A DNA stretch of 64,000 bases from an uncultured Bizionia sp. (GTDB taxonomy: Bacteria > Bacteroidota > Bacteroidia > Flavobacteriales > Flavobacteriaceae): the NCBI GenBank assembly GCA_947496215.1, contig CANMCF010000001.1, positions 310,001 to 374,000 of the forward strand, read 5' to 3'. The translations under genes were made by a program, and so were the position numbers. The notes beneath the pieces are model-generated. The model was not told the origin of the DNA and did no database searches. It saw nothing but the letters and a program-made list of their open reading frames with translations. Numbering within the stretch: position 1 is the stretch's first letter; every line of letters starts with the position of its first letter. Positions 1 through 55,672 of this stretch are shown here, piece by piece.

Positions 1-1155
1 ACTAATTGGAAAGATGCATGGAAGGCTCTTCTTTCGGAAGATGTCATTAGAATTGCCAAACAACTGGAAACTCAACCTCTATCGCTTGTCAATGGCGGTG
101 TTATGAAACGCTTTGAGAAAGTTTTTGCCAAGTTTTCAGGAACAGAATACGCAGTTTCCACGAACAATGGTACTGCTGCGATTTATTCTGCGTTATGGGC
201 AGTGGGAGTTCGTAAGGGAGATGAAGTCCTTGTTTGCGATTATGGATTCGTTGCAATGGCTGGAGCCATTACAACAATAGGAGCAGTTATGGTACCTGTG
301 GATATCGATTCTGGAACATTGACAATGGATCCTAAAGATCTAAGTAGAAAAATCACAGAAAAGACAAAGGCAGTACTCATTCATAATCCTTGGGGTGTTC
401 CAGCTGAGTTGGATGCCATTCGGTTGGTCACGGAGTTACCATTGATACTTGATGCCTCACATGCTCATGGAGCAATGTACAAAGGAGAGCATTTGTCCAA
501 ATGGGCAGACATCACATGTTATTCATTAGGAAAAGACAAATTGATTAGTGGAGGTGAATTGGGGTGTGCAGTAACTAACAATGTCAATTATAGGGACAAT
601 ATGATACTACTCGGTCACATCAATCGTACACCTCATGATTTGAAGGAGAGCAACTGGGATGGAAATGCTGTAGGCCTAAAATTCAGACCGCATGTAATGG
701 CATTGGAAATTGCCATGTCACAATTAAAGAGATTCAAAGAAAAAAAACAAAAACTTGTTGAAACTTGTAGACGCATAGAGGAGATATTTTCCAACTACGG
801 CTTTATCCCTCAATATGTCCATAATAATTCGGAACGGGTTTATTGGCGAATTGTTTTTCATGTTGATGCATCAATATGGGGGAAGATTGAAACTTCCAAA
901 ATTGAATCAGTTCTTAAAGAGGTAGGGTTGCCAATTGAGTCAAATCATTATTGGCCCTTGTTGCAGCATCAATCACATTTCAAATGGGAAGACAACAAGA
1001 GTTTGGTTCGACATATGGATTGCGTTAAATCACAAGAGACTGTGCCGGGTTTGATTACATTCCCTGCACCGGTAGATTTTAATGAAACACAATTTTCTCG
1101 AATTGAGAGTGCTCTTGAGGAAGCAAAACAATTGATTCTTGTCTCAGATATTTAA
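1..1155 (+). CDS. DegT/DnrJ/EryC1/StrS-type PLP aminotransferase (5' end outside window)
   Basis: The frame is open from base 1, and the residues before the first ATG (103) already align with the family, so the gene begins upstream and is partial here. The family makes amino sugars or amino-substituted metabolites by PLP-dependent transamination in the cytoplasm. Visible marks are the N-terminal substrate loop with STNNGTAA, the PLP-contacting Asp in DASHAHGA, and the expected Lys segment SLGKDKLISGGELG. The C-terminal domain (RFRPHV-like segment, MALEIAMSQLKRF) is also typical. It converges on the leftward biosynthetic operon and shares its terminator. It could supply an amino group to the cluster product, but opposite orientation and unknown upstream genes leave this open. 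Confidence 0.85.
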   Translation, partial: TNWKDAWKALLSEDVIRIAKQLETQPLSLVNGGVMKRFEKVFAKFSGTEYAVSTNNGTAAIYSALWAVGVRKGDEVLVCDYGFVAMAGAITTIGAVMVPVDIDSGTLTMDPKDLSRKITEKTKAVLIHNPWGVPAELDAIRLVTELPLILDASHAHGAMYKGEHLSKWADITCYSLGKDKLISGGELGCAVTNNVNYRDNMILLGHINRTPHDLKESNWDGNAVGLKFRPHVMALEIAMSQLKRFKEKKQKLVETCRRIEEIFSNYGFIPQYVHNNSERVYWRIVFHVDASIWGKIETSKIESVLKEVGLPIESNHYWPLLQHQSHFKWEDNKSLVRHMDCVKSQETVPGLITFPAPVDFNETQFSRIESALEEAKQLILVSDI

Positions 1156-1189: not shown

Positions 1190-1232
1190 AATAAGGGCCT
1201 GATGCATACATTGCATCAGGCTCTTATTTTTT
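1190..1232. terminator. Bidirectional intrinsic terminator
   Basis: A 16-nt arm (AATAAGGGCCTGATGC, 1190-1205) pairs with 1213-1228 with one mismatch around a 7-nt loop. It is followed by T-rich sequence on the + strand and by A-rich sequence upstream, so it works in both directions. It separates the convergent aminotransferase and methyltransferase genes. Confidence 0.85.
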
Positions 1233-1902
1233 ATGTTTCTTTTGTGAAAAACACTTCAAAACCAAGAGAGCCTAGACCAGATTCTTCAGTAACCAGTTTG
1301 GCAATTCCCTTTAAACCAGCTTTATCTATGAAATGCTCCATTTCCTCCATTGTGAATTTTTCTTCAATGATGGTTGGTGGCATGTTTAACTTTGCTCTGA
1401 AATCAGTGAAATCTTGGAGTGTTTCTGCAGGTGCGTCCCTACGCATATCATGAATAAGACAAACTCCACCAGGTTTTAATACGCGATATTTTTCACGCAA
1501 GGAATCGGTTGGATCTGCAAGATGATGAAGAGTTGCTCTACTCATGACGACATCGAAATGATTGTCGGGGAAGTTCATTGAAGCTGCATCACCCTTGACC
1601 ACTTCTACCTTGTCGTCCAAATTGTCGTTATGCACTTTTTCTTTACATGTGTCTACCATGTCTTGATAATAATCAAGACCGGTGAACTTGTAACCATCAT
1701 ATTCAGGGGTTGCTGCAAGTTCTCGAACTATAAGCCCGGTACCGATGCCTACATCAAGCATTTTTCCTTGTTTTCCCTCTGGTTTGAGTTCGAATTTCAA
1801 GCGTTCTAGATATATGTCGTCCCATGGTCTTCCCAGTTTTGAAATTAGTGACTCATAGTCTTCTGGTGTTTGTCGAACCTTGATGTTGTTTTTTGTTTTC
1901 AT
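1231..1902 (-). CDS. Class I SAM-dependent methyltransferase (cluster MT 1)
   Basis: A 223-aa Rossmann-fold methyltransferase. Motif I is MLDVGIGTG (about residues 48-56). An acidic residue follows in GLDYY, then GDAASMNFPDNHFDVVMSRATLHHLADP and the post-motif LKPGG. It is the last gene of the leftward biosynthetic operon, 9 bp after the citrate-synthase-like gene. It is clearly paralogous to the methyltransferase at 3110-3784, sharing the ENNIK start, the TLHHL/TIHHL, REKYRVLKPGG and RRDAPxETL blocks, and the IEEKFTMEEM tail. The substrate cannot be read from the sequence; O-methylation of a carboxyl or hydroxyl on the cluster product is a reasonable guess. Confidence 0.85.
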   Translation of the reverse strand: MKTKNNIKVRQTPEDYESLISKLGRPWDDIYLERLKFELKPEGKQGKMLDVGIGTGLIVRELAATPEYDGYKFTGLDYYQDMVDTCKEKVHNDNLDDKVEVVKGDAASMNFPDNHFDVVMSRATLHHLADPTDSLREKYRVLKPGGVCLIHDMRRDAPAETLQDFTDFRAKLNMPPTIIEEKFTMEEMEHFIDKAGLKGIAKLVTEESGLGSLGFEVFFTKET

Positions 1903-1911
1903 ATTGATTGT

Positions 1912-3069
1912 TTATAGCCAGTCCATTGGGACTTTATTAAGATAATTTCGTGCAACGTTGTTTTTTATGCCAAATGCAGGTTTGGATTGCCTTTCCTCCA
2001 TATGTGCAATCATGGTAACTGTTCTTCCTATCAATGCAATTGAAGGACCTAAGAATGGTATTTTGAAATCTAGTGAAGTCATGATGGCCCCATGCATTGC
2101 TTCTAAATTTGGATGTATATTTTTCATTGTTGCCACGTTTTCGGAAACTGTTTTGAAAAAATCAAGGCTTTCATGTGCCAATCCAACTTCATCAACTATT
2201 TCAAGTAATCTCGTAACTCTTGGATCTCTCTTGAAAAATGGATGACCAAACCCAAGTAGTTTGTTTCCATCTGTAAATTGTTCTTCGAGAAATGATTTGA
2301 CATATTCTTCCATGTCTCTGCCATTGCGATCTTGATTCATTTTCTGAAACATCATTATCACATCTTGACTTGTCCCGAGGTGCCATGGCCCTGCAGTCGT
2401 ACATCCCGCAATAATCGAGATCCCAACGGAAACTCCAGAGCCAATGCTTATGCGTGGGGCCATAATTGAAGGTGTCATGTATCCAAAACCAGCACAAAAT
2501 GAAACAAGTATTGATTCTACAAGTCTTTTCTCCTTGACATTTGCCAATTCCTTGCCCCTGAAGAATAATGCAATTCTGTCTATGTAATCACCATCCAAGC
2601 GCTTTGCTTCTTCCAAACGGATTTTTAAAACTGAAAGCTCTTCTTCTATTGGACATGCTGCTGAGAGTCCACAAATAATAGGCAATATTGCCATAAAGTA
2701 GAATCCTGAAAGTACGGTATACGATATGTCGATTTCTTCAAGATCAGGGGGACGAAGTGCACTAATCTCCTTTTGTCTGTCTATCGTGAGTCCAGCTATG
2801 GTAGCATTTAAGGAAAAATCTGTAGAACTTGCAATTTCTGGTATGATCTTAAAAAGTAGATCATCACTGTCAATTGATCGGAATGCATCATCGAAAAACC
2901 TATTCAACTCTGTTAATTGTCGAGTTGTCGGGTATTGATTGTAAAGGGCTAGAAACATACACTCTATGAGTGTTTTTTCACCAATTAGTTCGTTAAGATC
3001 TATTCCTCTTAAAATCAGTCTATCTGGATTCATTTGTGGTCCATCTATGTCTGTTCCTTGATAAAGCAT
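1912..3069 (-). CDS. Citrate-synthase-like enzyme (citrate synthase/citryl-CoA lyase superfamily)
   Basis: 385 aa covering the full length of a short bacterial citrate synthase. Citrate synthases condense acetyl-CoA or another acyl-CoA with oxaloacetate or another oxo-acid. The first catalytic His lies in GPWHLG (His230; the usual motif is HGG). The second lies in GFGHPFFKRDPR (His276). The usual catalytic Asp is replaced: the matching segment NLEAMHGA has Glu323. The C-terminal GRTVTMIAHMEER block is intact. It sits inside the polyketide operon between two paralogous methyltransferases, so a biosynthetic rather than TCA role is likely. Joining an acyl-CoA or polyketide chain to an oxo-acid is an inference by analogy with fungal alkylcitrate pathways. 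Confidence 0.85.
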   Translation of the reverse strand: MLYQGTDIDGPQMNPDRLILRGIDLNELIGEKTLIECMFLALYNQYPTTRQLTELNRFFDDAFRSIDSDDLLFKIIPEIASSTDFSLNATIAGLTIDRQKEISALRPPDLEEIDISYTVLSGFYFMAILPIICGLSAACPIEEELSVLKIRLEEAKRLDGDYIDRIALFFRGKELANVKEKRLVESILVSFCAGFGYMTPSIMAPRISIGSGVSVGISIIAGCTTAGPWHLGTSQDVIMMFQKMNQDRNGRDMEEYVKSFLEEQFTDGNKLLGFGHPFFKRDPRVTRLLEIVDEVGLAHESLDFFKTVSENVATMKNIHPNLEAMHGAIMTSLDFKIPFLGPSIALIGRTVTMIAHMEERQSKPAFGIKNNVARNYLNKVPMDWL

Positions 3070-3109
3070 GTATTTTTGGTTTAGGTATTAAAATTATCGA
3101 TTGAAGATT

Positions 3110-3784
3110 TTAATTTGCAGGTTTGTATATCATAAGTTCGTATCCAATGGATTCAGGACCTGAATTGGAGGTAGAAAGTGTAGCATGATCATCGAGACCA
3201 GCTCTATGGATAAATGATTGCATTTCTTCCATGGTGAACTTCTCCTCTATGTTTGTTGGTCCCATATCCAGATCGGCACGAATTTTTCTAAAGTATTCGA
3301 GTGTTTCTTCCGGAGCATCTCTTCTTGCATCGTGAATTATGGCAAAACCTCCAGGTTTTAGTACTCTGTACTTCTCTTTTAATGAATCAGTAGGATCTTC
3401 CAGGTGATGGATTGTAGCACGACTGATAACGACGTCGAAAGAATTGTCAGGATAATCCAGCTTGTTGGCATCTCCTTGAGCAGTGGTTATTCTGTTATTA
3501 ACACCTTCTTCTGTTATTCGATCATTGGCAACTTCAACCATATCGTCAAAATAATCGATACCTGTAAAATGGAAATCATCAAAAGCATTGTCTTTGGCCA
3601 TATAGCGAAGTATGATGCCTGTACCCATTCCAACATCAAGCATTTCACCTGTTTTCTTGGAATCCCCAAGTTCTGTCTTAATTCTGAACAATAATAGCTT
3701 ATCCCATATTTCTGTTAGTTTTGCAACCTTGTTTTCATATTCCTGTGCTGTTGGAATTGCCTTGATATTATTTTCATGTTTCAT
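3110..3784 (-). CDS. Class I SAM-dependent methyltransferase (cluster MT 2)
   Basis: A 224-aa paralogue of the methyltransferase at 1231-1902. Motif I is MLDVGMGTG, followed by GIDYFDDMV, GDANKLDYPDNSFDVVISRATIHHL, and LKPGGFAIIHDARRDAPEETL. The C-terminus also matches (IEEKFTMEEMQSFIHRAGL). The two copies flank the citrate-synthase-like gene, which points to local duplication followed by specialisation to two positions or two steps. The start at 3784 gives the same ENNIKA-type N-terminus as its paralogue. It is cytoplasmic; the substrate is unknown. Confidence 0.85.
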   Translation of the reverse strand: MKHENNIKAIPTAQEYENKVAKLTEIWDKLLLFRIKTELGDSKKTGEMLDVGMGTGIILRYMAKDNAFDDFHFTGIDYFDDMVEVANDRITEEGVNNRITTAQGDANKLDYPDNSFDVVISRATIHHLEDPTDSLKEKYRVLKPGGFAIIHDARRDAPEETLEYFRKIRADLDMGPTNIEEKFTMEEMQSFIHRAGLDDHATLSTSNSGPESIGYELMIYKPAN

Positions 3785-3824
3785 AAATATATGTGTGTTA
3801 TTTTGGGTTATTAGTTTTTATAAA

Positions 3825-4082
3825 TTAGTGGTTAGTTGCAATTTCTCTAATTTCACAATCGAAATCCAGTGATACTTCACTTTCCCTAAACGCTGTGCGA
3901 ACATCAGAGAAGGAATCTGCATTGAGTATATATATGGAGCCACCTCCAATTTTGATGTAGGCCTGCTCAAGTACTCCCGACTTTTTCATTCTATTTATGA
4001 AAGCTTGTTTTTCATACAGTCTGTCTGTACCTGAAATGATGAGTGATGATGATTTACGAGTTGTTGTAACAAAAAATTTCAT
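3825..4082 (-). CDS. Small ferredoxin-like barrel protein, muconolactone isomerase/YCII-like
   Basis: An 85-aa protein beginning MKFFVTTTRK with the block YIKIGGGSIYILNADSF (about residues 41-57). Its order of beta strands and helices resembles the dimeric alpha/beta barrel of muconolactone isomerase and YCII-like proteins. It is paralogous to the 95-aa protein at 14301-14588, which opens the same operon (shared MKF start, AY-IGGGS-Y, KAD/NAD). Small barrels of this type occur in polyketide clusters as cyclases or isomerases, but no catalytic residue can be named here. The fold is inferred from the sequence pattern. Confidence 0.65.
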   Translation of the reverse strand: MKFFVTTTRKSSSLIISGTDRLYEKQAFINRMKKSGVLEQAYIKIGGGSIYILNADSFSDVRTAFRESEVSLDFDCEIREIATNH

Positions 4083-4095
4083 TGCTGTCTTTATC

Positions 4096-4845
4096 TTATT
4101 GAATTTGGTTAGGAGTTAAAATATTGAATATGGGTTTTGTGACAAATCCTATGTTTTGAATTACCTTGCAGTTGTAATCCAGTTCTACTTCTTTTTTATA
4201 GAGAGGGAATAGCTTCTTTAATATTCCTTGTTCGGATTCGGGGGCTTGTTCTGCTACTGGAGTGTTCATAGCGTGTTCAAAAAAATCTTGACAAAAGTTG
4301 GTTTCACCAATCCAAGCACCTCCGTTGAAATAGCGAAAGTCAGAATCAAGGTTTTTTGAAATGTCATCCTCATAAATCTGAAACTCTTTAAGAGGAGGCC
4401 AGTTAATTCTGTCAGCCCCAAAAAGTAATTTGCAATCAAACTCTTGTTCGAACTTCTTTATAATATTCGCAGGATCATCAACTAATATTGCATCTCGTGA
4501 ATCTGCATAAAGCACATATTTCGTTTTAATCTCCTTAAGAGCTTCAAATAGCACGATTGGCTTGTCTCTGGAGTTTACCCATGGATTGATGCCATTTCCA
4601 TACACTTTATACTTTACACCAAGATGGTCAAGACTTTTTTCAAAAAGCCCCATCGATTGGTGTCCATTGTTGCATGTTATTATGGTTATGTCACTTGGTG
4701 TGTCCAAATTCGCAGGAGACATTTCAAAGAATGCATTCCGAATGGGAAGCCAGTTTGGTTTATAGTCGTGACTCCCATGTGCATGGATTAAGGAAGGACT
4801 TGTTTCAAACTGTGTATTGACGACTTGAAATTCGAATGGTTGCAT
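4096..4845 (-). CDS. PLOD-like glycosyltransferase domain protein
   Basis: 249 aa resembling the glycosyltransferase domain of procollagen lysyl hydroxylase (PLOD) proteins. It has a Rossmann-like start (SDITIITCNNGH), the metal/nucleotide-sugar Asp motif in KYVLYADSRDAIL, an LLFGADRINWPP segment, the acceptor-side FNGGAWIG, and SEQGILKKLFP. These match retaining or inverting GT-A enzymes that transfer a sugar from a UDP-sugar. Its start codon overlaps the stop of the oxygenase gene by one base (TAATG), implying translational coupling. In the cluster it could glycosylate the product. No signal peptide is visible. Confidence 0.7.
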   Translation of the reverse strand: MQPFEFQVVNTQFETSPSLIHAHGSHDYKPNWLPIRNAFFEMSPANLDTPSDITIITCNNGHQSMGLFEKSLDHLGVKYKVYGNGINPWVNSRDKPIVLFEALKEIKTKYVLYADSRDAILVDDPANIIKKFEQEFDCKLLFGADRINWPPLKEFQIYEDDISKNLDSDFRYFNGGAWIGETNFCQDFFEHAMNTPVAEQAPESEQGILKKLFPLYKKEVELDYNCKVIQNIGFVTKPIFNILTPNQIQ

Positions 4846-5816
4846 TAGCTTATTGTATTTAAATTTGTGTCACCCATACGAACATATACTTCTCGTACTT
4901 TACTTGTCGATTCTCGTCTCCCATGCATTATGGACATGTTATCCACCATGAGGACTTCTCCTTTGTTCCACTCGACATTTATAGTAAGAGCTTCTGCTGT
5001 TTTTCTAATAGCATCTAAAATGTCCTCAGGAATCTTTGTTCCATCCTCCATACGTACGACAAGAGGGCAGTGTTTTCCAAATTTAAGGCCTAACTCTTTC
5101 TCGGCCCAACCTGACTCAAAGGCCCATTCAACAGCTGATATGTTCAGTATGTTATTTATATAGCTCATTTCGCCGGTATCATTTAGTTGTTTGAACGGAC
5201 TTACGCTGTATTCAGTCATGAATGCGTTGTTTTCTTTGTCAAATTGAAAGGATACCTTCTGATCGTTGCAAATTTCCATGGCGTGCTCTGGACTTTCCGT
5301 CATGAAAGAACTTTGCCAAGCGCCATCTGGTAGTTGACGAATGTATTTGATTTTCTGATCTCCGAAAAAGGATTTCACATGATCAGGCAGCTTATTTGCC
5401 AAAGCATGCCCATCGCATAGTGTAGTTTGCCCTGTGTTGACTCCTGGGATTTTACAGTAGAACCAAATCGTTTCAGGAGGGACCCCCATATAGTGCATCT
5501 CTCCATGCAATGGAATTGGAAAGCCTTGAGTAGATCCAGTTGTGGTCATTATCGTTTTATCCGAGTTCACAAAAGCGCGATCTAATTGTTTAAAACGAAA
5601 CCCGCCACCTTCATAGGAGGAAAAATTATTGCACAAACGACTACTCAATCCTTGGAAGCTTTCAAGATTCATATCCCATCCTTTGAAATAAAGTGCTCGA
5701 TGAGTTTTAAATAGGGATTCCAACGTTTCTCTTTTTATTTCCAGAGGACTGGAAAAAGTACCTGGCTCAATTGTCACACCAAAGCTGTCGGATAGTTTTG
5801 TTTTTATAAATTCCAT
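4845..5816 (-). CDS. TauD/TfdA-family Fe(II)/2-oxoglutarate-dependent oxygenase (SyrP-like)
   Basis: 323 aa. The facial triad is visible as His104-x-Glu106 (LHGEMHY) and the distal His298 in DNMSIMHGRRES, where an Arg next to it would bind 2-oxoglutarate. The HxE form, rather than HxD, is seen in clavaminate-synthase- and SyrP-like members, which hydroxylate or desaturate amino-acid or natural-product intermediates. It lies between the lipase (20 bp upstream) and the glycosyltransferase (1-bp overlap). A hydroxylating or oxidative tailoring step on the polyketide product is the likely role; the substrate is unknown. Confidence 0.85.
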   Translation of the reverse strand: MEFIKTKLSDSFGVTIEPGTFSSPLEIKRETLESLFKTHRALYFKGWDMNLESFQGLSSRLCNNFSSYEGGGFRFKQLDRAFVNSDKTIMTTTGSTQGFPIPLHGEMHYMGVPPETIWFYCKIPGVNTGQTTLCDGHALANKLPDHVKSFFGDQKIKYIRQLPDGAWQSSFMTESPEHAMEICNDQKVSFQFDKENNAFMTEYSVSPFKQLNDTGEMSYINNILNISAVEWAFESGWAEKELGLKFGKHCPLVVRMEDGTKIPEDILDAIRKTAEALTINVEWNKGEVLMVDNMSIMHGRRESTSKVREVYVRMGDTNLNTIS

Positions 5817-5836
5817 AATGGTCTTGTATGAATTGA

Positions 5837-6904
5837 TTATGAATTGGTTTGATTCTTGGCCATTTCTTTTACTACAGATCCCCAGTCGGTTAAATCAAAT
5901 AATTCCATATCCGAGTTACGTGGAATACCTAAAAGTTCAAAGTATGCATCCACATGTTGATACCCCAATTGAATTCCAAAATTTATTGCGTCAGGATAGT
6001 CTTTATTGACAATTGAAGCGTCAACAGTTCCTTCAAGTTTTTCTTCTATTGTTCCAGCTTGCACATAATCTATATCTTTCACTTTGGCAATGCTACGATC
6101 CACCAATGTGTCTATGCAATCTGAACTTGGGATTTCTGGAGTATAAAGTGTTTTTATCGCTGAGAGGTCTGTCTTGTTCCAGGCATGGGGAACAACATCT
6201 TTAGTATTGTGAATTCTATGGGTCTCAGGAATTCTTGTGTTGTAATATGTCTTGAATCCTGGAGTACCTGTTGTTGGGCCTGCTGAAGGCCAAGAAGAAA
6301 TACCTTCAATTGCCTGAGTTGGATCCCACTCTATTTGATTGTCTTTCAACCATAGGGCGCATAAAGGGGATATTGCCCCGCCAAGGCTATGTCCACCTGT
6401 TATCAATGAAAACGAGTTGGCTTCAGAGCTTGTAAGAGAACTCTTCAGGTAATCGGTTAGGGAGATTGGTGAACCAATCGTTTTTCCGTTAACTCTGGCA
6501 TTGGTCTTCATACCAATAAGCACATCCAATGCAAGTTTGGAACCAGATGCTATTTGTACGGTATCTCCAGCGTTGTTCCAAGGCCATTGTAGAGTTGTAC
6601 TCACATCAAGGTCTTCAATCCAGTTCAATAAAGAATAAGGATTCGTCCCCGAGACCGAAAGGAAATAACGAGATGTGGATTTATCGAATGCCAGAAACAT
6701 GATTTGATCTGGTTTGCTTTTTGGAATTACACGATAAACGGCTGGCCCCCATACGATATCCCAATTGGATAGATGATAAGCATCTAGAAAATTTCTGGTT
6801 TTATCATAAACCTTCTGTTCAATTCCTGAACCTGATTTATCCGAAGCTTCATTTACGGAAATATTCATCAAAAACATTTCTTGTATTTCACTGTAATTGC
6901 TCAT
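5837..6904 (-). CDS. Lipase class 3-type alpha/beta hydrolase
   Basis: 355 aa with the nucleophile elbow GGHSLGGA (Ser173). An upstream oxyanion-side segment SVSGTNPYSLLNW occupies the place of the family FRGT motif, and a candidate catalytic Asp lies in HNTKDVVPHAW. No signal peptide is visible, so it is probably cytoplasmic. It is the third or fourth gene of the leftward operon, 17 bp after the ketoreductase. In this setting it may release the chain from the ACP, form an ester or lactone, or hydrolyse an intermediate. The PKS has no thioesterase domain, which makes release by this protein an attractive but unproven idea. Confidence 0.8.
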   Translation of the reverse strand: MSNYSEIQEMFLMNISVNEASDKSGSGIEQKVYDKTRNFLDAYHLSNWDIVWGPAVYRVIPKSKPDQIMFLAFDKSTSRYFLSVSGTNPYSLLNWIEDLDVSTTLQWPWNNAGDTVQIASGSKLALDVLIGMKTNARVNGKTIGSPISLTDYLKSSLTSSEANSFSLITGGHSLGGAISPLCALWLKDNQIEWDPTQAIEGISSWPSAGPTTGTPGFKTYYNTRIPETHRIHNTKDVVPHAWNKTDLSAIKTLYTPEIPSSDCIDTLVDRSIAKVKDIDYVQAGTIEEKLEGTVDASIVNKDYPDAINFGIQLGYQHVDAYFELLGIPRNSDMELFDLTDWGSVVKEMAKNQTNS

Positions 6905-6921
6905 GTTTTTTCTTTTTATGA

Positions 6922-8565
6922 TTAATTATCTCTATTTAGTGAAAGAAGATCAATGTTAAAAATCTCTTTCAATTCATTTTTTCGCTCTGGATTCCATGTT
7001 CCTTCTCCTAGAACAATTTCAACTTCTTTAGGGTCGCCATGCATTAATTCACCAATGAAGCAGCCAGTACCACTTTGTACGTCTATGGGAATGATGCCTC
7101 TTTCTATAAATTGATCGTTTACCACACTAGAGGCCATTCCAACACCGCTCCAAGGTCCCCAGTTCAATGATTTGACGACTACGTGAGGATGTTCCGATCG
7201 CATTCTCCATGCTAGTCTGTTCAGCACTTCGTTGGCAGCTGCATAATCAGATTGTCCTTTGTTTCCATATCGGCCAGCGGTAGAACTAAAAAGCACGAAC
7301 GCTTTGAGTTTGTCCCATTTAATTGTCGAGTAAAGTATGAATGCACTGTCCACCTTTGTATCGAATACCTTGTCTAAAGACGTTGTATCCTTGTTTCTCA
7401 ATAAGCGATCCTGAATTATTCCAGCACCATGTACTACGGCATCAATTTTCCCATAGTCTTCATAAATGGAATTGATTAAGTTGGAAAAGGCACTAGGATC
7501 GGATACATCGCATACGACGTAATCAACTTTATTGCCTATGCGTCTTAGTTTAGCTACATTTTGACGGATTTCCCTATCTGAAAGCGTGCGACGAATCTTA
7601 GATTCTATCAGAGAAGGGGAAATCTTGTCAGGAGATTCTTTGGCCAAACGAATGAATTCCTTTCGCAATCCAGATTCATCCAGATGTCTATACTTAATGA
7701 AATGGCCTCTCTCAAGCAGTTCGCTTCTTCCAACCAGAATCATTCGACTATTTTCATTGCTGAGCAATTTAATCGTCTCTGATGTAATGCCACGTGCTCC
7801 TCCAGTAGCAAGAACGACCCAGCCTTTGCCAGGTTTCAACCCTACTGGTTTTATCGTTCTGTTCAGTTTGGATCGGTATGTCGAAAAAACAATTCTATTT
7901 CCTCTTGGATAGCCTACTTCCGTATTTCCATTACCATAGGAAAGTTCATCAAGGATACAACTCGCCATTTTTTTCATAGGTAGCGAAAGATCAAAGTCAA
8001 TTGTTTTTGCTAGAATGCTATTCCATTCATATTCAAGTGATTTAAGTAAGCCTTGTCCTCCTCCAGAAATCGGTAACCCAGCTTGAGCTGATAGATCCCT
8101 GCCATAGTAACCTCCCAACAACGAGCAGGTTATTAATCCCTTGAATTGATGAGATTGATCAATTTCAAAATCATCATATGTCGATCGCAAAATGTGAAAA
8201 ATGCTTTTACATTGCATTTGGACTTCATTTTTCCAGGACCTTATGTCCTTTGGGAAGTCCATCGCTTTCAACCCTGCGAGATGTATAACGCCATTAACGG
8301 GACCGAAGATGTTACGGGCTTTCTTTATTTCTAGTGATATGGCCTCTTCACTTGTATATTTTGACGCTTCTATTATGTAAGCGAATGCGCCACGATAGAT
8401 TAGCTCATCAGCCAATATGTTTGCAACCCCCATCTCATCTTCTGTTATCAAATATAGGCCACTAAAATTTTTATTGGTTCTCCGTTGAGGAAGTGCTTCT
8501 TCCTCATGTCGCATTAGATAGCGTATGTCCGTAGAGGATTGATATATTTGCTGTTCTTTGGACAT
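6922..8565 (-). CDS. Stand-alone polyketide ketoreductase (KR)
   Basis: 547 aa laid out like a modular KR with two Rossmann halves. A structural half spans about residues 35-230 (HLAGLKAMDF, LLGGYYGR). The catalytic half starts with the NADPH-binding TGGARGI (254-260) and continues with the Ser/Tyr/Asn set in FSSTAGRYGNKGQSDYAAAN (Tyr441, Asn445) and LNWGPWSGVGM. The closest style is the KR of PUFA synthase-like and other iterative type I systems. It begins 2 bp after the PKS stop, so the two are co-translated. It should reduce beta-keto groups on the ACP-bound chain made by the neighbouring KS-AT-ACP protein, which has no KR of its own. Confidence 0.88.
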   Translation of the reverse strand: MSKEQQIYQSSTDIRYLMRHEEEALPQRRTNKNFSGLYLITEDEMGVANILADELIYRGAFAYIIEASKYTSEEAISLEIKKARNIFGPVNGVIHLAGLKAMDFPKDIRSWKNEVQMQCKSIFHILRSTYDDFEIDQSHQFKGLITCSLLGGYYGRDLSAQAGLPISGGGQGLLKSLEYEWNSILAKTIDFDLSLPMKKMASCILDELSYGNGNTEVGYPRGNRIVFSTYRSKLNRTIKPVGLKPGKGWVVLATGGARGITSETIKLLSNENSRMILVGRSELLERGHFIKYRHLDESGLRKEFIRLAKESPDKISPSLIESKIRRTLSDREIRQNVAKLRRIGNKVDYVVCDVSDPSAFSNLINSIYEDYGKIDAVVHGAGIIQDRLLRNKDTTSLDKVFDTKVDSAFILYSTIKWDKLKAFVLFSSTAGRYGNKGQSDYAAANEVLNRLAWRMRSEHPHVVVKSLNWGPWSGVGMASSVVNDQFIERGIIPIDVQSGTGCFIGELMHGDPKEVEIVLGEGTWNPERKNELKEIFNIDLLSLNRDN

Positions 8566-8567
8566 TG

Positions 8568-11500
8568 TTAAATAGCGTTTTGTCTCTGTTTTTCCATTGT
8601 TGTTTCTTCTCCCATCAGTTCAGAAGCCAAAGTATCGACAAGTAACTTGAATTGTTTTACTCTTACAAAGCGATCGGCATTCGAAACCAGTTTGGCAGTA
8701 AGTTTTTCTGGTAGCAGGGCAGAGAATTTCTGAAATATTTCTACACGTTTAATCGAATCGACACCTAGATCAGCTTCAAGATCTAATTCATCTACTATCA
8801 TATCTTCTGGGTATCCCGTCTTGTCACTGATCAATGCAATGAGGGCATTTCGGATTTCTTCAGCAGAATTTAGTGATTTTTCAGGTTTCACAGATTGCTC
8901 CACCACCGTGTCTTGAGATGGTTTCGTGATTGGATCAACTGTAGTTGAGTGTATGGTTTGATTGTATTCTGGGGCTGGTACTTGGGTACTCCTGTTGTCA
9001 ATAGATGGTGGAGGGGAGAAGAGCGGTGCTTTTATAGGAGTAGATGGCACAGCATTGTATTGTTCGGGCATTGCACTCCCAGGAATGTTTGCTCCACCAA
9101 GAAACATTTTCATGATCTGTTCTTGAGTTCTCAAAAACTGTCTCATTGTTTCTTGATATGCGTGGTAGGCTACCATGGTAGGGTCGTACGTGGAAGGAAC
9201 GGGTGAGGGAGTGTTTTTAGGCTTTTGCTCTGTATTTCGTTGTATGAAACTTCCATTTTTAGGAGTATTGTCGTTCATAATTTCTTTTTCTTTTGGGTTG
9301 TTCTGATTAGAGGTTAAAATTGGTTGTGGAAGGGTTTTGATTAGTGCAGGATTTACTGGTTTGGCACCATGTCCGTTAATCATCCAACTTGTCGGTTTGG
9401 GAGGAGCAATGGCATAATCTACTGCTAGTTTATGTAAAGGGATTGTCTTTACATTCCGGTTGTCGAAAAGCTTTTCTAGATTTATGGCTAAACCTTGTGT
9501 CCAAAGTTTGGCTATCGTTGAAATGAAAGTAGAAACACCAGACTCAGAACCATCAACGGATAATGCAAGATGCTCTTTCTCGTTTAGAATCCGCCCTACG
9601 AGGTTTGTTAGTATTCTACCTGGTCCGAGTTCTACGAAAATCGTTGTATTGGATTTTTGCATTTCTTCAACTTGTGAAACAAATTCTACAGGTTGCAACA
9701 AGTGTTTTTTTATGAGCTTTCGAATATCATTGGGCTCAGTAGGGAAAAGCTTTCCTGTACTATTGCTGAATATGGGTTTTTTAGGCGAATTGAATTCTAG
9801 GGTATCTATGAAATCATTTAAGGGTTTCCTTGCGTCATTCATCATTGGAGAATGAAAGGCTGCTGATATAGAAAGTTCAATACACTTTATGTCTTTAGCT
9901 TTCAATAGCTCAATTGCCTTGTCGATGGATACAATAGGGCCAGATACCACTACCTGATTTGGACCATTGTGGTTGGCTATGACAAGATCTAAGTCAGAGT
10001 CTTGAATGAATGCTTCAACGTCTTGTTTTGATGCAATTACCACTGCCATAGTACCGGAGTTGTTCCCTGCCTTGGCCATGACACTTCCTCTAAATTCTGC
10101 GAGACGAATAAAATCACGACGGTTAATTACCCCAGCTACATGTAAAGCTGTTATTTCCCCAAAACTGTGACCAGCAAAATAATCAGCATATATGCCTAGT
10201 CTGGTGAACAAGTCAAAGAATGCGGTGGAAATCAAACCAATTGCAGGTTGGGCTATGTGTGTATCATTGAGCTTTTCTTCTTGTTGTTTGGTCCCATTTT
10301 CCTCAAAGGAGAGAGGAGGGAAGATGTAATTGGAAAAACGCTGTCCATACTTGGAGGAAAGCTCTGTGTTTGTAGCTTCTAGGTTTTTTCTGAATTCAGG
10401 AAAGTACAATGACATTTCTCTTCCCATTTGTAGGTGTTGAGAGCCTTGCCCTGAAAAAAGGAAAGCTACTTTTCCCGTGGTATCATTTTCCTTCACACCA
10501 AAAGTTATTCTTGGTGGGGTTTGACTACTATTGGATTTAAGAAATGTAATGGCCTTATCAAGCATCGAAAGCACTTCTTCCATATTTTTTACTACGATTG
10601 AAAGCCTATGTGACACTTTCTTTGATGCATTTTTGTGTACTAGACTCCAAGAGAGGTCTCTTAGATTGATCGCAAGAGGAGAAGAAAATTGCTCCTTGAT
10701 TCCATATATTTCCTTCAACAACAACTCACGTGAATCTGCAGAAAAAACAAGAACTTCTGCTGGCCATTTATCACCACCATTTATTAAGGAACATTCGTAG
10801 CCTTTATCTTCTTCGAGCACGGCATGGAAATTTGTCCCGCCAAAACCAAATGCACTAACGCCTGCTCGTCTAGGGTTCTTTTCCGACCTCAACCATGGCA
10901 TTGGTTTGTCATGGAAGAAAACAGGGGAATCTGACTGAAGAATCTGTTCAAGTGGTTCTGTGATGTTTCCTTGGGGAGGAAGTACCTTGTAGTGAAGTGC
11001 TAGTGCCGTTTTAGCCAAACTTACAAGCCCCGCAGCCATTTTCGTATGACCGATAATACTCTTTATGGAGCCTAGAGCGATTGATTTAGGTTCTGCTCCA
11101 TATTGTTTCAAAGTTGTTAGAATAGTATTGAGTTCTTCACTATCACCAACTACGGTACCAGTACCGTGCCCTTCATAGAGGCTAATGGAATCTGGTAAAA
11201 AACCAGCTTCTGAATACGCCCGATGCAAGGATAGTTGTTGCCCTTCTGAACGTGGAGCTGTCAAGCCCATTCCACGACCATCACTAGATCCAGAAATACC
11301 TTTTATGACAGCATATATCCTATCTCCATCTTTCTTGGCGTCCGACAGTCTTTTCAATATCGTTACAGCACCACCTTCACTAATGACGATTCCATTTGCT
11401 TTTTTGTCGAAAGGTCGACTTTTCCCAGTTGGGGATAGGGCTCCAGTTTTACTAAAGGCCATATACCCAAATGGTGTTTGCCCTACATCTATACCACCTA

Positions 11501-14225
11501 CAACTACAATATTGCTACGACCGGTTGTCAATTCACGTACGCCTAGGTCGAGCGCAAGCAATGATGAGGCACATGCTGCATCCACGGCATAATTACGTCC
11601 ACTAAAGTTCATTCTATTGGCAATGCGACCTGGAACCACATTCCCCAGAATTCCAGGAAAGGTTTCTTCCGTCCATGATTGCGTACGATCTTTAATGTCT
11701 TTTGTATCAGAGGAAAAAAACGGAGCACAACTTCGCACCACAAGGGAATTTGCGAGATATCCTCCGGAATCTGATGTAGCGAAGACGACACTCGTGTTTT
11801 CTCCATCCATCGTATCTTTATCCATCCCAGCATCTTCGAGGGCCATATCTACACTTTCCAGAGCCAATAACTGACATGTGGTTATGTTTGGTATCGATTT
11901 TGGGGGAATTCCGTATTTAAGAGGATCAAATTCTACATCGTCTATGAAACCTCCCCATTTTGAGGATATTTTGTCTTCGGCAGTTGGGTCTTCATCATAA
12001 AGAAGCTTCCAGTCCCACCTGTCTGATGGTATTTCTTTGAGATGCTTCTTTTTTGAGAGTATCGTTTCCCAAAACTCTTCTGTTTTATTTGAACCGGGAA
12101 CCATTAAACTAACTCCAACGATAGCAATGTCAGTTGGAGATTCCTTTGTTTCCTTTTTCATTGTTTTATTTTTTATGAGGCCTAGAATTATTTTATTGGA
12201 GTTTACACTTACTTCTGTATGAAGTTCCTGTAAAGTTTGTCTTCGAGATAAAAGGCTAGCAGCTTCACCAGCCATGAACATACCTTCTTTTTCCACATAG
12301 GGAATAGATGTCTTTTTATAAATACCTTCAGATTCCCTTTTCACGCCTTTACTTGCAATCTTCAACCTTCCAAGAAGCAACTTGTCCAGTGACAGTGTAA
12401 TTTCTTCCTGAGCTTTCCCTTTTGAAAGGAGGTTTTTTCGTTTAGACTTGAATTCCTTGGAAAAAGGGGAGACTATGCATCTGTTTGCATGGCCTGGTCC
12501 ACTGTGTAGCAATGTTGTTTTTGAAGATTCTATTATGGCATTTTGAAAAGTCTCGGTTATGGCTCCAGCTTTAACGATTTCTTCGCAAGACAGATAGGCC
12601 GTTCCCATGAGAACGCCTATTTTCATTCCTCTTGCGGTTAATGCGGATGCAAGCAAAGAAACGGCAGCTGCAGAATATGCATCATGAATTCCACCTGCAA
12701 ACAATATGCTGTACTTGTTACTTTTTTCTTTAGGTATTTCGGAGATGATGGTAGAAATCATTTGTTCCCACAAGGGGAATGAATTGAAAGGTCCAACATG
12801 TCCTCCACATTCACGCCCTTCGAATATAAATCGAGTTGCCCCTTCTTTTATGAACGTTTTCAGCAAAGAAGGCACAGGAACATGCAGGTAGGTCTTTATT
12901 CCTTCTTTTTCAAGTGAAGTTGCTTGATCAGGCCGCCCTCCTGCAATTATGGCAAAGGGAGGTTTTACAGCAACAATTTGTTTAATTTGCTCTTGTCTTA
13001 ATTCAAATGGAACAAACCCTAGTATACCAACTCCCCAGGATTTCCCCTTCATTTTCGATGATGTGTTTAAAAGCAGGTCATTCAGTTCATCACCTTTTAA
13101 AAGTGCAAGGGCAATAAATGGTAAAGCACCAGAATCGTAAATGTTGGAGGCGAATTCGGGTGAATCACTGACCCGTGTCATTGGGCCTTGAACTATGGGA
13201 TAGGTTGTTTTGTGCTCTATGGCAAGAGGACTCCCGGATTTTAGGGCGGTTGTGACATTAACATTTTCAATAGACTTTGCCATCGATTCATGCAAGGCTT
13301 CTATAAAGCCGTTTAATGTCGTGTGTTTTTTTTGATAGTGGACAGAAAGTGCAATCATTTGACCGATGGGCCATATGGTACTTTTGGGATTTCCCCAGTA
13401 GAAACTCTTCTTGATTCTAGAGAGGTTAAGAACAGTCCGTTCTTCAAAACCCTTGGCAAGTGAACTATTCTTAAAGTCAATCAAGCAGTCTTTAGCATAT
13501 GTAGCCCAAGGTTGATTGATTATATTATATTGTGATTCGTTTTCTGATTCTAGAACTTCAAACTCACGCCCTTCCAATTTGGACAATAGTTCTTTAGTTG
13601 ATTTGGAGATTGGAGAGCTCGGAAACAACAATACTTGATCATCGAGTACGAATCCCTTGATTTTGGTTAATTTTGTCAATGCCGCAGTATGCATGCCAAT
13701 CCCTCCTTTTAAATAAATAGGGAGACAGTCTAGGTTCTTGATTTGTTGGAGAAAGAGAAAAGTCGGTGTTTTACTGGTATAGCCTCCAGATTCTGCAGTA
13801 ACGGCAACATAACCGGTAAGAGGAATTCCATGTTCTCCACAATATACTTCGACAGTTTGAATTTCTGAAGGTGAATGTACCTCTAGAAAAAACTTGTACT
13901 GAGTATGTTTTTTTAGTAAAGTCAGCTTTGAAAGATCAGAGAGATGATCGAGTACAAAGAAGACGTTCTTGTTTTGTTTTGGAAACTCTTCAAGGTTGAT
14001 GAGTTCCATGAAATGAGAAATTGAAACATTAAAACCTAAATTTGAGTGTTCTGGGTAATACTCCCGAAGCGAAGCCATATTATGGCGAACATCTACCCAG
14101 TTTTCAGGAATTATGTTTTTTAAGTCCAGAACACCGGTTTCTCCAGAGTTTGCAGCACCGGTTAATAATCTTATTCCCTTCAAGTTTCCAGGGGAATAAA
14201 CCCAAATATCAGTTTTCTTTAGCAT
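8568..14225 (-). CDS. Iterative-type type I polyketide synthase: (ER-like)2-KS-AT-ACP
   Basis: 1885 aa. Residues 1-230 resemble a degenerate TIM barrel (LPIYLKGGIGMHTAAL). Residues 340-620 are a nitronate-monooxygenase/PfaD-like flavin barrel (PIVQGPMTRVSD, EGRECGGHVGP at 469-479, GTAYLSCEE). The KS spans 695-1135 with Cys885 (DAACASS), His1020 (EGHGTGT) and His1060 (IIGHT). The AT spans 1250-1560 with Ser1354 (GHSFGE) and an AAFHSP motif pointing to malonyl-CoA. A Pro/Gln-rich linker (1600-1770) leads to one ACP with Ser1824 (LGVDSIKRVE). No dehydratase, methyltransferase or thioesterase domain is visible. The ketoreductase is the next gene. The design resembles PUFA/PfaA- and PfaD-type systems fused in an unusual order; the product is unknown. 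Confidence 0.9.
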   Translation of the reverse strand: MLKKTDIWVYSPGNLKGIRLLTGAANSGETGVLDLKNIIPENWVDVRHNMASLREYYPEHSNLGFNVSISHFMELINLEEFPKQNKNVFFVLDHLSDLSKLTLLKKHTQYKFFLEVHSPSEIQTVEVYCGEHGIPLTGYVAVTAESGGYTSKTPTFLFLQQIKNLDCLPIYLKGGIGMHTAALTKLTKIKGFVLDDQVLLFPSSPISKSTKELLSKLEGREFEVLESENESQYNIINQPWATYAKDCLIDFKNSSLAKGFEERTVLNLSRIKKSFYWGNPKSTIWPIGQMIALSVHYQKKHTTLNGFIEALHESMAKSIENVNVTTALKSGSPLAIEHKTTYPIVQGPMTRVSDSPEFASNIYDSGALPFIALALLKGDELNDLLLNTSSKMKGKSWGVGILGFVPFELRQEQIKQIVAVKPPFAIIAGGRPDQATSLEKEGIKTYLHVPVPSLLKTFIKEGATRFIFEGRECGGHVGPFNSFPLWEQMISTIISEIPKEKSNKYSILFAGGIHDAYSAAAVSLLASALTARGMKIGVLMGTAYLSCEEIVKAGAITETFQNAIIESSKTTLLHSGPGHANRCIVSPFSKEFKSKRKNLLSKGKAQEEITLSLDKLLLGRLKIASKGVKRESEGIYKKTSIPYVEKEGMFMAGEAASLLSRRQTLQELHTEVSVNSNKIILGLIKNKTMKKETKESPTDIAIVGVSLMVPGSNKTEEFWETILSKKKHLKEIPSDRWDWKLLYDEDPTAEDKISSKWGGFIDDVEFDPLKYGIPPKSIPNITTCQLLALESVDMALEDAGMDKDTMDGENTSVVFATSDSGGYLANSLVVRSCAPFFSSDTKDIKDRTQSWTEETFPGILGNVVPGRIANRMNFSGRNYAVDAACASSLLALDLGVRELTTGRSNIVVVGGIDVGQTPFGYMAFSKTGALSPTGKSRPFDKKANGIVISEGGAVTILKRLSDAKKDGDRIYAVIKGISGSSDGRGMGLTAPRSEGQQLSLHRAYSEAGFLPDSISLYEGHGTGTVVGDSEELNTILTTLKQYGAEPKSIALGSIKSIIGHTKMAAGLVSLAKTALALHYKVLPPQGNITEPLEQILQSDSPVFFHDKPMPWLRSEKNPRRAGVSAFGFGGTNFHAVLEEDKGYECSLINGGDKWPAEVLVFSADSRELLLKEIYGIKEQFSSPLAINLRDLSWSLVHKNASKKVSHRLSIVVKNMEEVLSMLDKAITFLKSNSSQTPPRITFGVKENDTTGKVAFLFSGQGSQHLQMGREMSLYFPEFRKNLEATNTELSSKYGQRFSNYIFPPLSFEENGTKQQEEKLNDTHIAQPAIGLISTAFFDLFTRLGIYADYFAGHSFGEITALHVAGVINRRDFIRLAEFRGSVMAKAGNNSGTMAVVIASKQDVEAFIQDSDLDLVIANHNGPNQVVVSGPIVSIDKAIELLKAKDIKCIELSISAAFHSPMMNDARKPLNDFIDTLEFNSPKKPIFSNSTGKLFPTEPNDIRKLIKKHLLQPVEFVSQVEEMQKSNTTIFVELGPGRILTNLVGRILNEKEHLALSVDGSESGVSTFISTIAKLWTQGLAINLEKLFDNRNVKTIPLHKLAVDYAIAPPKPTSWMINGHGAKPVNPALIKTLPQPILTSNQNNPKEKEIMNDNTPKNGSFIQRNTEQKPKNTPSPVPSTYDPTMVAYHAYQETMRQFLRTQEQIMKMFLGGANIPGSAMPEQYNAVPSTPIKAPLFSPPPSIDNRSTQVPAPEYNQTIHSTTVDPITKPSQDTVVEQSVKPEKSLNSAEEIRNALIALISDKTGYPEDMIVDELDLEADLGVDSIKRVEIFQKFSALLPEKLTAKLVSNADRFVRVKQFKLLVDTLASELMGEETTMEKQRQNAI

Positions 14226-14245
14226 TCTACCTTTTTTTAATTTAA

Positions 14246-14278
14246 CAAGCCCGAAAGAATGGTCTTCTGTCGGGCTTG
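14246..14278 (-). terminator. Hairpin between the 95-aa gene and the PKS
   Basis: Perfect 9-bp arms CAAGCCCGA (14246-14254) and TCGGGCTTG (14270-14278) with a 15-nt loop. On the minus strand only a modest T/A stretch follows. It therefore probably acts as a partial terminator or attenuator that lowers PKS expression relative to the upstream small gene, or as an mRNA end stabiliser. Confidence 0.55.
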
Positions 14279-14300
14279 ACTCTTAAAATAATTTTAAAAA

Positions 14301-14588
14301 TTAGTTAGAGTAATTTGCAACTCCATCCAAGAAATCGTGTGCATCCGCAACAGGAATTACTTCGTGATTTTGAGATTGGAACAATGGATTAGAACGAATT
14401 AGAACAGCAAGTTGCTTTGCTGTATCAGCCTTTACTACATAGGCAGATCCTCCACCGATAAATGCATAGGCAACTTCAATAACTCTATCGTCTTGAAGTT
14501 TACGTAGTGCATTGGCATTTGAGCTAGCAGATGATGCAGAAACATCATGACCAGCTCCATTTGGACGAGAAACAACTAAAAATTTCAT
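14301..14588 (-). CDS. Small ferredoxin-like barrel protein, first gene of biosynthetic operon
   Basis: A 95-aa protein starting MKFLVVSRPNGAGHD, with AYAFIGGGSAYVVKADT (about residues 42-58) and NHEVIPVAD. It is a paralogue of the 85-aa protein at 3825-4082 and has the muconolactone isomerase/YCII-like pattern. It is the promoter-proximal gene of the leftward operon and is separated from the PKS by a hairpin, so it may be produced in excess. In this context it could be a polyketide cyclase or isomerase, or a protective binding protein; no active site is evident. Confidence 0.7.
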   Translation of the reverse strand: MKFLVVSRPNGAGHDVSASSASSNANALRKLQDDRVIEVAYAFIGGGSAYVVKADTAKQLAVLIRSNPLFQSQNHEVIPVADAHDFLDGVANYSN

Positions 14589-15172: not shown

Positions 15173-16111
15173 TTATAATTCCATCTTGTTTTTAGATGCT
15201 TTTAACATATTGTACCTTATTTGTTTTATTGTAAGTGTACTCCCATCATGGCTCCAACCAGGAGGGCCAAAAACATACATGAATTTATGATACCAATTGT
15301 TTGATTTTGATATGTCTTCCCAAATGTTTCTGTATTCATGAGTTAAAATAACATAAAGATTGTAAGAGTTTGGGGGGGTGGAAACCCCGTATTCTATATC
15401 AATGGAATTGTCCAGTTCTTTCCAAGTTCCAAAAAGTCTATCGAAAACATTGAGGATACCCCCATGGTTTTTGTCCATATATTCGATATTTCGTGCATGG
15501 TGTACTTGATGCATGGTATGGGTATTGATAAATTTTTCTAGAATCCCCATTTTTTTAATGTACTTTGTGTGTAATTGGAATTGCCACAGGGCTTCAATAC
15601 CCATACAAACAACGAGCATCTCTGGAGGAAATCCAATTATTACGATCCAAACATAAAAAAAGGGTTTGTAAAAAATAGTGAACCAACCATTTCGTACTGC
15701 CGTACCCAAATTAAAGTTGTCTGAAGAATGATGAACGATATGTGCTGCCCATAGAAAGCGGATCATATGATTTTGTCGATGAAACCAATAGTAGGAATAA
15801 TCATCCAAAAGCATGCATATCAACCAAACATACCAAGCATATCCAAAAGAATCCCAACCCATAATATTTGTGCGAATCCCATTTACCATTGGATTGAATA
15901 TGTCATAGGCAAAATTAAATACCAATATTACGGTTGCTGTCTTTATTAATGCGCCTAGTATTACGGATCCGACACCAAGTGATAAACTCGATATTAGATC
16001 TCTCCATTTGTATAGTTGTTTGTCTTCAAAAACTTTACTATAGGTAAGCTCAATTGCTATAAAACCCAAAAAACATGGAATTCCATAAACTAAGGGGTTA
16101 GTCAAATCCAT
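15173..16111 (-). CDS. Sterol desaturase/fatty acid hydroxylase superfamily membrane protein
   Basis: 312 aa with several membrane-spanning segments and the His-box set of the diiron superfamily: HRQNH, then HIVHHSSD, and near the C-terminus HTMHQVHHARN. Such enzymes hydroxylate or desaturate lipids at the membrane. The segment WDSFGYAWYVWLICMLLDDYSYYWFHR is typical of bacterial members. It is transcribed in the same direction as the biosynthetic operon but sits about 580 bp upstream of that operon's promoter, so it is probably expressed separately. A contribution to lipid tailoring is possible but unsupported. Confidence 0.85.
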   Translation of the reverse strand: MDLTNPLVYGIPCFLGFIAIELTYSKVFEDKQLYKWRDLISSLSLGVGSVILGALIKTATVILVFNFAYDIFNPMVNGIRTNIMGWDSFGYAWYVWLICMLLDDYSYYWFHRQNHMIRFLWAAHIVHHSSDNFNLGTAVRNGWFTIFYKPFFYVWIVIIGFPPEMLVVCMGIEALWQFQLHTKYIKKMGILEKFINTHTMHQVHHARNIEYMDKNHGGILNVFDRLFGTWKELDNSIDIEYGVSTPPNSYNLYVILTHEYRNIWEDISKSNNWYHKFMYVFGPPGWSHDGSTLTIKQIRYNMLKASKNKMEL

Positions 16112-45294: not shown

Positions 45295-45307
45295 TTCAAC
45301 GACCATT

Positions 45308-46399: not shown

Positions 46400-46423
46400 T
46401 AACTGCTAACCAAAAAATCGAGT

Positions 46424-50638: not shown

Positions 50639-50669
50639 ATACCATTGCTATGCGTATTCAGGTCTTTTT

Positions 50670-55670: not shown

Positions 55671-55672
55671 AT

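Follow-up and report, generated by a model that had tools for sequence, protein, structure and literature searches.

At the left end of a 64,000-nucleotide stretch of DNA from an uncultured Bizionia sp. (hereafter the window, which starts at C1:310001 of contig C1 in genome G000) lies a gene cluster in which a multidomain lipid synthase is encoded together with a citrate-synthase-like enzyme. A sequence-only reading of the window had placed a single operon at 1231-14588, and Pfam and NCBIfam searches of the window proteins bear this out: the genes from 14588 to 1231 are closely spaced and all on the minus strand, and those it had listed are real, namely an enoyl reductase-ketosynthase-acyltransferase-acyl carrier protein (ER-KS-AT-ACP) synthase, a ketoreductase (KR), a lipase, a TauD-family oxygenase, a glycosyltransferase and a citrate synthase homologue between two methyltransferases. 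What it had left out is a second, convergent operon at C1:301258-311155, mostly to the left of the window (stretch L031), which was found by searching the genome with the acyltransferase-dehydratase-phosphopantetheinyl transferase (AT-DH-PPTase) partner protein of a related cluster. This left operon carries genes for a PfaBC-like AT-DH-PPTase protein and a stand-alone ACP of 98 residues, for two MurG-like (GT28) glycosyltransferases and a YdjC-like deacetylase, and for a Gfo/Idh/MocA oxidoreductase and a DegT aminotransferase; combined, the two operons cover about 23.3 kb of contig C1. The principal genes are as follows, in window positions unless prefixed with C1.

C1:301258-305445, left operon: PfaBC-like AT-DH-PPTase protein of about 1400 residues, ending 4.6 kb left of the window
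1..1155, plus strand: DegT/DnrJ-type aminotransferase (PF01041, 1.6e-53), last gene of the left operon; the full gene is C1:309989-311155, its start just outside the window
1231..1902, minus strand: MT1, BolS/AfcT-type class I methyltransferase (Methyltransf_11, 4.7e-27)
1912..3069, minus strand: AfcS/BolR-type citrate-synthase-like enzyme (PF00285, 4.4e-28)
3110..3784, minus strand: MT2, BolS/AfcT-type class I methyltransferase, with methyltransferases of citrate-synthase clusters as best plasmid matches
3825..4082, minus strand: small protein of 85 residues, no Pfam match above cut-off
4096..4845, minus strand: PLOD-like glycosyltransferase, conserved core (GT_PLOD, 44.1 bits, cut-off 27)
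4845..5816, minus strand: TauD-family Fe(II)/2-oxoglutarate oxygenase, conserved core (PF02668, 1.1e-27)
5837..6904, minus strand: class 3 lipase, outside the conserved core (PF01764, 1.5e-12)
6922..8565, minus strand: KR, separate gene (PF08659, 7.3e-38)
8568..14225, minus strand: PfaDA-like synthase, ER-KS-AT-ACP (Pfam and NCBIfam domains)
14301..14588, minus strand: small protein of 95 residues, faintly muconolactone-isomerase-like (PF02426, 14.5 bits, cut-off 26.7)

The core of this cluster recurs in three Rhodobacterales records, which we refer to as the pfa type: plasmid pSC52_2 (L003, hereafter SC52), Fluviibacterium aquatile (L007) and Roseicyclus marinus (L011). Eight parts are common to these and the window, and the Rhodobacterales clusters have them in one gene run: the PfaDA-like synthase, KR, TauD protein, PLOD-like glycosyltransferase, citrate-synthase-like enzyme, methyltransferase, PfaBC-PPTase protein and ACP, the last matching between the two groups at E 3e-15. 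In the Rhodobacterales the KR is fused to the synthase and there is one methyltransferase, whereas the window has a separate KR and two methyltransferases. Because this core recurs, the linkage of citrate synthase and lipid synthase is not a matter of chance, and a chance neighbourhood was rejected on the synteny in the three records. The SC52 and Fluviibacterium clusters are nearly identical, so that, with the window counted, the pfa type has three distinct examples; the Fluviibacterium synthase is interrupted by the contig end, and the SC52 annotation is generic. Outside the core, neither the lipase (by tblastn) nor the DegT protein has a match in L003, L007 or L011, and the annotated L003 operon is without the MurG-like glycosyltransferases, YdjC and Gfo/Idh proteins that the window cluster has (L007 and L011 carry no annotation). 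A protein of 67-74 residues follows the ACP in pfa-type clusters (L003 26014-26238 and L011 15972-16175, 69% identical); the L003 copy shows no Pfam family, and none of the window cluster's three small proteins matches it.

Relatives of the citrate-synthase-like enzyme are rare in the collections searched. Only 4 of 72,556 plasmid records match it, from Rhodobacteraceae SC52, two Burkholderia and one Sinorhizobium, the last annotated as citryl-CoA lyase, and a search of viral contigs returned no relative. A scan of genome contigs with two peptide patterns, which sets a floor, gave at least 19 loci: the two pfa-type loci of Fluviibacterium and Roseicyclus, and 17 in Chromobacterium, Trinickia, Robbsia and Burkholderia that resemble the afc cluster for AFC-BC11 (afc type). 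A methyltransferase gene and a TauD gene lie at most two genes from the citrate-synthase-like gene in 21 of 22 loci (L003-L005, L007-L025); the 22nd, L025, ends within the citrate-synthase-like gene. In overlapping genome samples a full-strength enzyme was found in the window's own genome alone, that is in 1 of 395 genomes of the phylum (by single protein at E 1e-20 and also by profile), 1 of 395 of the order (E 1e-40), 1 of 299 of the family and 1 of 3 of the genus. The phylum profile search passed 98 of 395 genomes at E 1e-12, the other 97 reaching at most 99 bits; of 341 genomes sampled from the order around Roseicyclus, 111 passed at E 1e-15, with Roseicyclus alone at full strength and the other 110 at 90 bits or less. 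Family proteins are well set apart by score, at 472 and 502 bits against at most 99 for others in the genome searches; within the loci compared they reach 365-646 bits, and other open reading frames no more than 88.

The synthase had been described in the sequence-only reading as part of a polyketide cluster. The catalytic motifs of its KS, AT and ACP, and those of the separate KR, are intact by alignment. Its best NCBIfam match is PfaA, under cut-off (798.6 vs 1010.1 bits), and its N-terminal NMO/FabK-like domain is a PfaD-type ER. In the partner protein Pfam finds AT and PPTase domains; its DH has no Pfam match, and DH motifs emerge only when it is aligned with the SC52 protein, in which Pfam does detect a DH. 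With these, the domain content expected of a PfaDA plus PfaBC-PPTase pair (ER, KS, AT, ACP, KR, AT, DH and PPTase) is present. The window synthase is 37-38% identical to the SC52 and Roseicyclus synthases, and the window KR shares 32.6% identity with the KR region of SC52 over 518 residues. The same ER-KS-AT-ACP synthase with an AT-DH-PPTase partner is found in Renibacterium-like and Aquimarina/Flavobacterium clade VI PfaDA and PfaBC-PPTase systems; the passage on clade VI mentions no citrate synthase and links its genes with polyketide synthase-nonribosomal peptide synthetase lines, unlike the window. A further copy of this chassis occurs in Streptomyces (L104) with an ACP, hydrolase, glycosyltransferase and methyltransferase, and no citrate synthase appears in its annotation, which is incomplete; other relatives adjoin genes like those of β-ketoacyl-ACP synthase III (KAS III) in Methylosinus and Beijerinckia. 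Such synthase genes have been placed in print among secondary lipid synthases whose known products are long alkyl chains. The supposed polyketide synthase is therefore better read as a dedicated secondary lipid synthase resembling those for polyunsaturated fatty acids (PUFA-synthase-like), and the class 3 lipase may possibly serve in chain release or transfer. A large polyketide synthase region does exist in the genome, apart from the cluster, at G000:C3:158000-195000, with frames of 6682, 2764 and 2245 residues and several KS matches.

The gene at 1912-3069, which sits between the two methyltransferase genes, encodes a protein of 385 residues. Its description as a citrate synthase homologue stands at the level of the PF00285 family, outside the tricarboxylic acid (TCA) cycle type, with the qualification that its best NCBIfam models are for citryl-CoA lyase, far under cut-off (107.6 vs 212 bits); the best PDB sequence match, 6hxp, is a citryl-CoA lyase as well. 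In a 36-row tree the window enzyme, the afc-type enzymes and the Rhodobacterales (pfa-type) enzymes form a clade of 11 rows at 96/96, and this clade joins four short citryl-CoA-lyase-like proteins at 100/100, apart from the TCA and PrpC (2-methylcitrate) types; a smaller tree recovers a family of 16 rows, the window enzyme among them, at 90/81. AfcS enters these trees by gene order, the afc identity of L004 and all afc gene names there being assigned by gene order and family and not by accession, while BolR is likened through its published description, its sequence lying outside the tree. The predicted structure (pLDDT 80) has full citrate synthase length and fold, and its best structural match is citrate synthase 1a59 (Z 34.2, root-mean-square deviation 3.4 over 341 residues); these Foldseek and VIA-align comparisons speak to fold only. 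An ordinary TCA enzyme was rejected: a separate TCA-type citrate synthase lies elsewhere in the same genome, at G000:C11:85172-86269, and the window enzyme falls outside the TCA clade. A simple citryl-CoA lyase was likewise rejected, on the score under cut-off and on 385 residues with a full citrate synthase fold as against the short single-domain lyases.

The methyltransferases tie the window to the other citrate-synthase clusters. MT1 is 52% identical to MT2, both are 35-37% identical to the afc methyltransferase of L004 (MT1 37%), and MT1 is 35-37% identical to the two Rhodobacterales methyltransferases compared. Among the best 15 of 51 plasmid records matched by MT2, the top three, at 164, 158 and 157 bits, are citrate-synthase clusters and the others reach 85 bits or less, so the methyltransferase link is strong. 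The TauD protein finds its best plasmid match in SC52 (239 bits, the next 165, among the best 15 of 80 records); pfa-type and afc-type TauD proteins are 24-28% identical, so shared ancestry of the two is weakly indicated. The PLOD-like glycosyltransferase is 38.5% identical to that of SC52, and at E 1e-6 no other plasmid record matched. The Gfo/Idh protein matches NCBIfam models such as inositol 2-dehydrogenase and UDP-GlcNAc 3-dehydrogenase, all under cut-off, and together the sugar genes suggest amino-sugar decoration of the lipid.

Some features bear on the limits and origin of the cluster. Its G+C content is 0.37-0.40 against 0.33 in the flanks, a hint of acquisition but no proof, and when a genus-mate was searched for an empty site, the flanking fatty acid hydroxylase gene was the sole match there. 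This gene, at 15173-16111 just upstream of the operon, encodes a fatty acid hydroxylase family protein with a 93% identical homologue in that genus-mate, a genome without a citrate synthase match; it is unmatched in L003, L007 and L011, and it probably lies outside the cluster. Within the operon, the small proteins at 3825-4082 and 14301-14588 resemble each other by eye (an MKF start and an IGGGS-Y motif) and perhaps form a paralogous pair.

Precedents for a citrate-derived head on a bacterial fatty acid come from Burkholderia (PMC7756342 for bolagladin and PMC12186527 for AFC-BC11); further literature background comes from PMC13291983, PMC3098273 and PMC7338620. The bolagladin cluster of Burkholderia gladioli, like the window, combines a citrate synthase homologue with an O-methyltransferase, and its product is a citrate-derived fatty acid; there the chain is proposed to come from the primary fatty acid synthase with KAS III homologues and is attached to a nonribosomal depsipeptide. 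BolR, which we compare by description, acts in vitro on acetyl-CoA and oxaloacetate to form citrate, releasing it together with CoA, and yet deletion of bolR costs the product C3H4O2, the head being gone in vivo (PMC7756342). It follows that ordinary citrate-synthase activity of the window enzyme, which the sequence-only reading had set down as a refutation, would be no clean refuter. The afc cluster (Burkholderia) likewise has a same-clade citrate-synthase-like gene adjoining a same-family methyltransferase and a TauD-family gene; as published, its head is coupled to a peptide assembly without condensation domains, by way of an adenylation enzyme, a fatty acyl-AMP ligase, KAS III-like enzymes and oxidoreductases. 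The window instead has a PUFA-like fatty acid synthase, glycosyltransferases and sugar genes and no nonribosomal peptide synthetase part. Methyl esters, as the sequence-only reading had foreseen, do not agree with these homologues: BolS places its methyl on the hydroxyl of the citrate-derived unit, where a methyl ether has been shown (PMC7756342), and AfcT O-methylates the malic portion (PMC12186527). In the open-licence papers searched we found no description of a PUFA-like synthase joined to this citrate synthase, nor of such a cluster in Bacteroidota; for bacteria at large the lack of a precedent is not supported, given bolagladin and AFC-BC11 (PMC7756342, PMC12186527).

Our analysis established the gene content, the intact catalytic motifs, the clade membership and the conserved synteny, and with lipid machinery beside a dedicated non-TCA citrate synthase homologue the general idea of a bacterial polycarboxylate lipid is supported. 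We consider it an even proposition that the cluster places a citrate-derived head on a chain made by its dedicated PUFA-synthase-like fatty acid synthase, with citryl as the starter. In such a pathway, the citrate-synthase-like enzyme would add an acetyl thioester to oxaloacetate and keep the citryl product bound as a thioester, to CoA or to the stand-alone ACP, with no release of citrate; one or both BolS/AfcT-type methyltransferases would O-methylate the tertiary hydroxyl; and the citryl or O-methylcitryl unit would prime the iterative ER-KS-AT-ACP, KR and AT-DH-PPTase synthase. TauD would then oxidise the product and the conserved PLOD-like glycosyltransferase would glycosylate it; in the window's genome the lipase would release or transfer the chain, and the MurG-like glycosyltransferases, YdjC, Gfo/Idh and DegT would add an amino sugar. 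We infer the starter use, the lack of hydrolysis, the order of steps and the sugar, as well as every step in the window's organism. Our findings speak for a citryl unit at the chain's far (omega) end, bearing an O-methyl ether and probably serving as the starter: pfa-type clusters have their own complete fatty acid synthase and a conserved stand-alone ACP, and the enzyme is nearer in sequence to citryl-CoA lyases than to TCA enzymes. Neither the afc FAD-oxidase nor a 215-residue piece of the afc AMP-ligase has a tblastn match in L003, L007 or L011, and neither family is among the Pfam matches of the window cluster, so that any activated citryl unit would have to be supplied directly by the citrate-synthase-like enzyme. 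More tentatively, and with the odds leaning against it, this would be the first type I PUFA-like fatty acid synthase primed by a tricarboxylate, in which a non-hydrolysing citrate synthase from the lyase side, its keto-acid pocket rebuilt without a His at the His-238 column, charges a dedicated ACP with citryl, then O-methylcitryl, as the starter. The products in Bacteroidota and Rhodobacterales would be amino-sugar-decorated lipids with an omega-citryl end, possibly bolaamphiphiles that bind metal.

The active site gives the starter proposal both support and difficulty. Residue numbers and roles are those of pig citrate synthase, with columns fixed by alignment. All 16 family rows retain the residues corresponding to His-274, His-320, Arg-329 and Arg-401, and of the catalytic His, His, acid set the window enzyme keeps both His, its acid being Glu, which aligns with a Glu of the Bacillus subtilis citrate synthase 2c6x. 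Several observations tell against the proposal. That Glu stands where the other 15 of 16 rows have Asp (Asp-375), and in the C-terminal RPAFG motif the window enzyme has Lys where 15 of 15 relatives carry Arg, presumably Arg-421', a guess from the motif, unaligned with the RP motif of TCA enzymes. At the His-238 column, where 10 of 11 non-family rows have His, all 16 family rows show Gly next to an insertion of two residues, and the His found four columns earlier in 12 afc-type rows is missing from the window and the three Rhodobacterales rows; with Gly in every family row, the 2-oxo acid may be one other than oxaloacetate. The enzyme is 24-30% identical to its relatives and lies on a long branch flagged by the tree program, its exact position being unsure. 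Among the four short lyase-like proteins only L006 is annotated as citryl-CoA lyase, the other three being without annotation, and L006 itself is without the His-274 and Asp-375 equivalents; kinship with active lyases therefore rests on the NCBIfam and PDB matches. From the literature, BolR hydrolysed its product to free citrate and CoA in vitro (PMC7756342), the bolagladin work invokes an acyl-CoA synthetase, and the AFC-BC11 authors prefer late-stage maturation (PMC12186527). Overall, the residue differences suggest that the enzyme is active and that its keto-acid pocket is altered.

In a rival, late-stage order, a finished chain bearing an omega-carboxylate would be hydroxylated by TauD at the neighbouring carbon and oxidised by a 2-hydroxyacid oxidase to the omega-2-oxo acid, to whose ketone the citrate-synthase-like enzyme would add acetyl-CoA before the methyltransferase caps the hydroxyl. 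Late-stage maturation is what the AFC-BC11 authors argue for (PMC12186527). The products of the afcS and afcF mutants are lighter by C3H4O2 or C3H4O3 (PMC12186527), which by our own arithmetic is the difference to CH(OH)COOH or CH2COOH ends, and the bolR mutant likewise loses C3H4O2 (PMC7756342); however, in the authors' own interpretation these masses stand for oxaloacetate or succinate surrogates (PMC12186527), and BolR accepts oxaloacetate (PMC7756342). The Gly at His-238 would suit a changed keto-acid pocket. L004 encodes a FAD_binding_4/FAD-oxidase_C protein, which is of a 2-hydroxyacid-dehydrogenase type, its AfcF label being assigned by gene order and family; but the oxidase is unmatched by tblastn in L003, L007 and L011, as is the hydroxylase beside the window operon, and the pfa-type and afc-type TauD proteins are just 24-28% identical. 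For the window we hold this order to be unlikely, though it is the nearest competitor to the citryl-starter route.

Less probable still is that the enzyme acts as a lyase or uses another 2-oxo acid, in unusual extender supply or citryl thioester recycling, and that the product has no citrate head. The citryl-CoA lyase matches in NCBIfam and PDB (6hxp), the grouping with short lyase-like proteins and the Glu, Lys and missing-His changes of the pocket fit such a role, whereas the two-domain citrate synthase length and fold (against lyases of about 270 residues), the conserved link with BolS/AfcT-type methyltransferases and the published BolR/AfcS phenotypes do not. The least likely route is that of the fungal alkylcitrates, whose head forms at the acyl alpha carbon: here the alpha carbon of a finished long-chain acyl thioester would be condensed with oxaloacetate. 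This squalestatin-type mechanism, advanced in the sequence-only reading, draws on the combination of a fatty acid or polyketide synthase with a dedicated citrate synthase, as in the akc cluster of Aspergillus niger. The window enzyme, however, groups with the afc type, whose citrate unit is omega and whose acyl carboxyl is left free for amide formation, and no 2-methylcitrate dehydratase, which akc carries, is among the Pfam matches of the window cluster; we give the mechanism little weight.

Elsewhere in the window, an RND (resistance-nodulation-division) efflux set (OEP, HlyD-type and AcrB-type proteins) lies at 42961-49534, about 28 kb from the cluster. A low-G+C stretch (0.26-0.29) at 50000-62000 encodes, at 54600-60649, a DUF3800 protein, an unassigned protein and an nSTAND NTPase of 1324 residues; it looks like an acquired island, possibly anti-phage. 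A Por secretion tail domain is in keeping with an origin in Bacteroidota.

Taken together, and as judged from sequence comparison, the head-forming module of bolagladin and AFC is joined to a PUFA-synthase-like fatty acid synthase in two other bacterial groups. The citrate-headed fatty acids that we found in print occur in Burkholderia peptides, their chain thought to come from the primary fatty acid synthase and the order of head formation open. The window cluster holds, in compact form, the head-forming pair of citrate-synthase-like enzyme and methyltransferase beside its own complete fatty acid synthase, ACP and PPTase, and because these lie in one cluster the question of starter versus late-stage head becomes testable with purified proteins. 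If true, the proposal would bring in polycarboxylate glycolipids as a further class, which might bind iron or act as surfactants, in bacteria for which the open-licence papers searched showed none.

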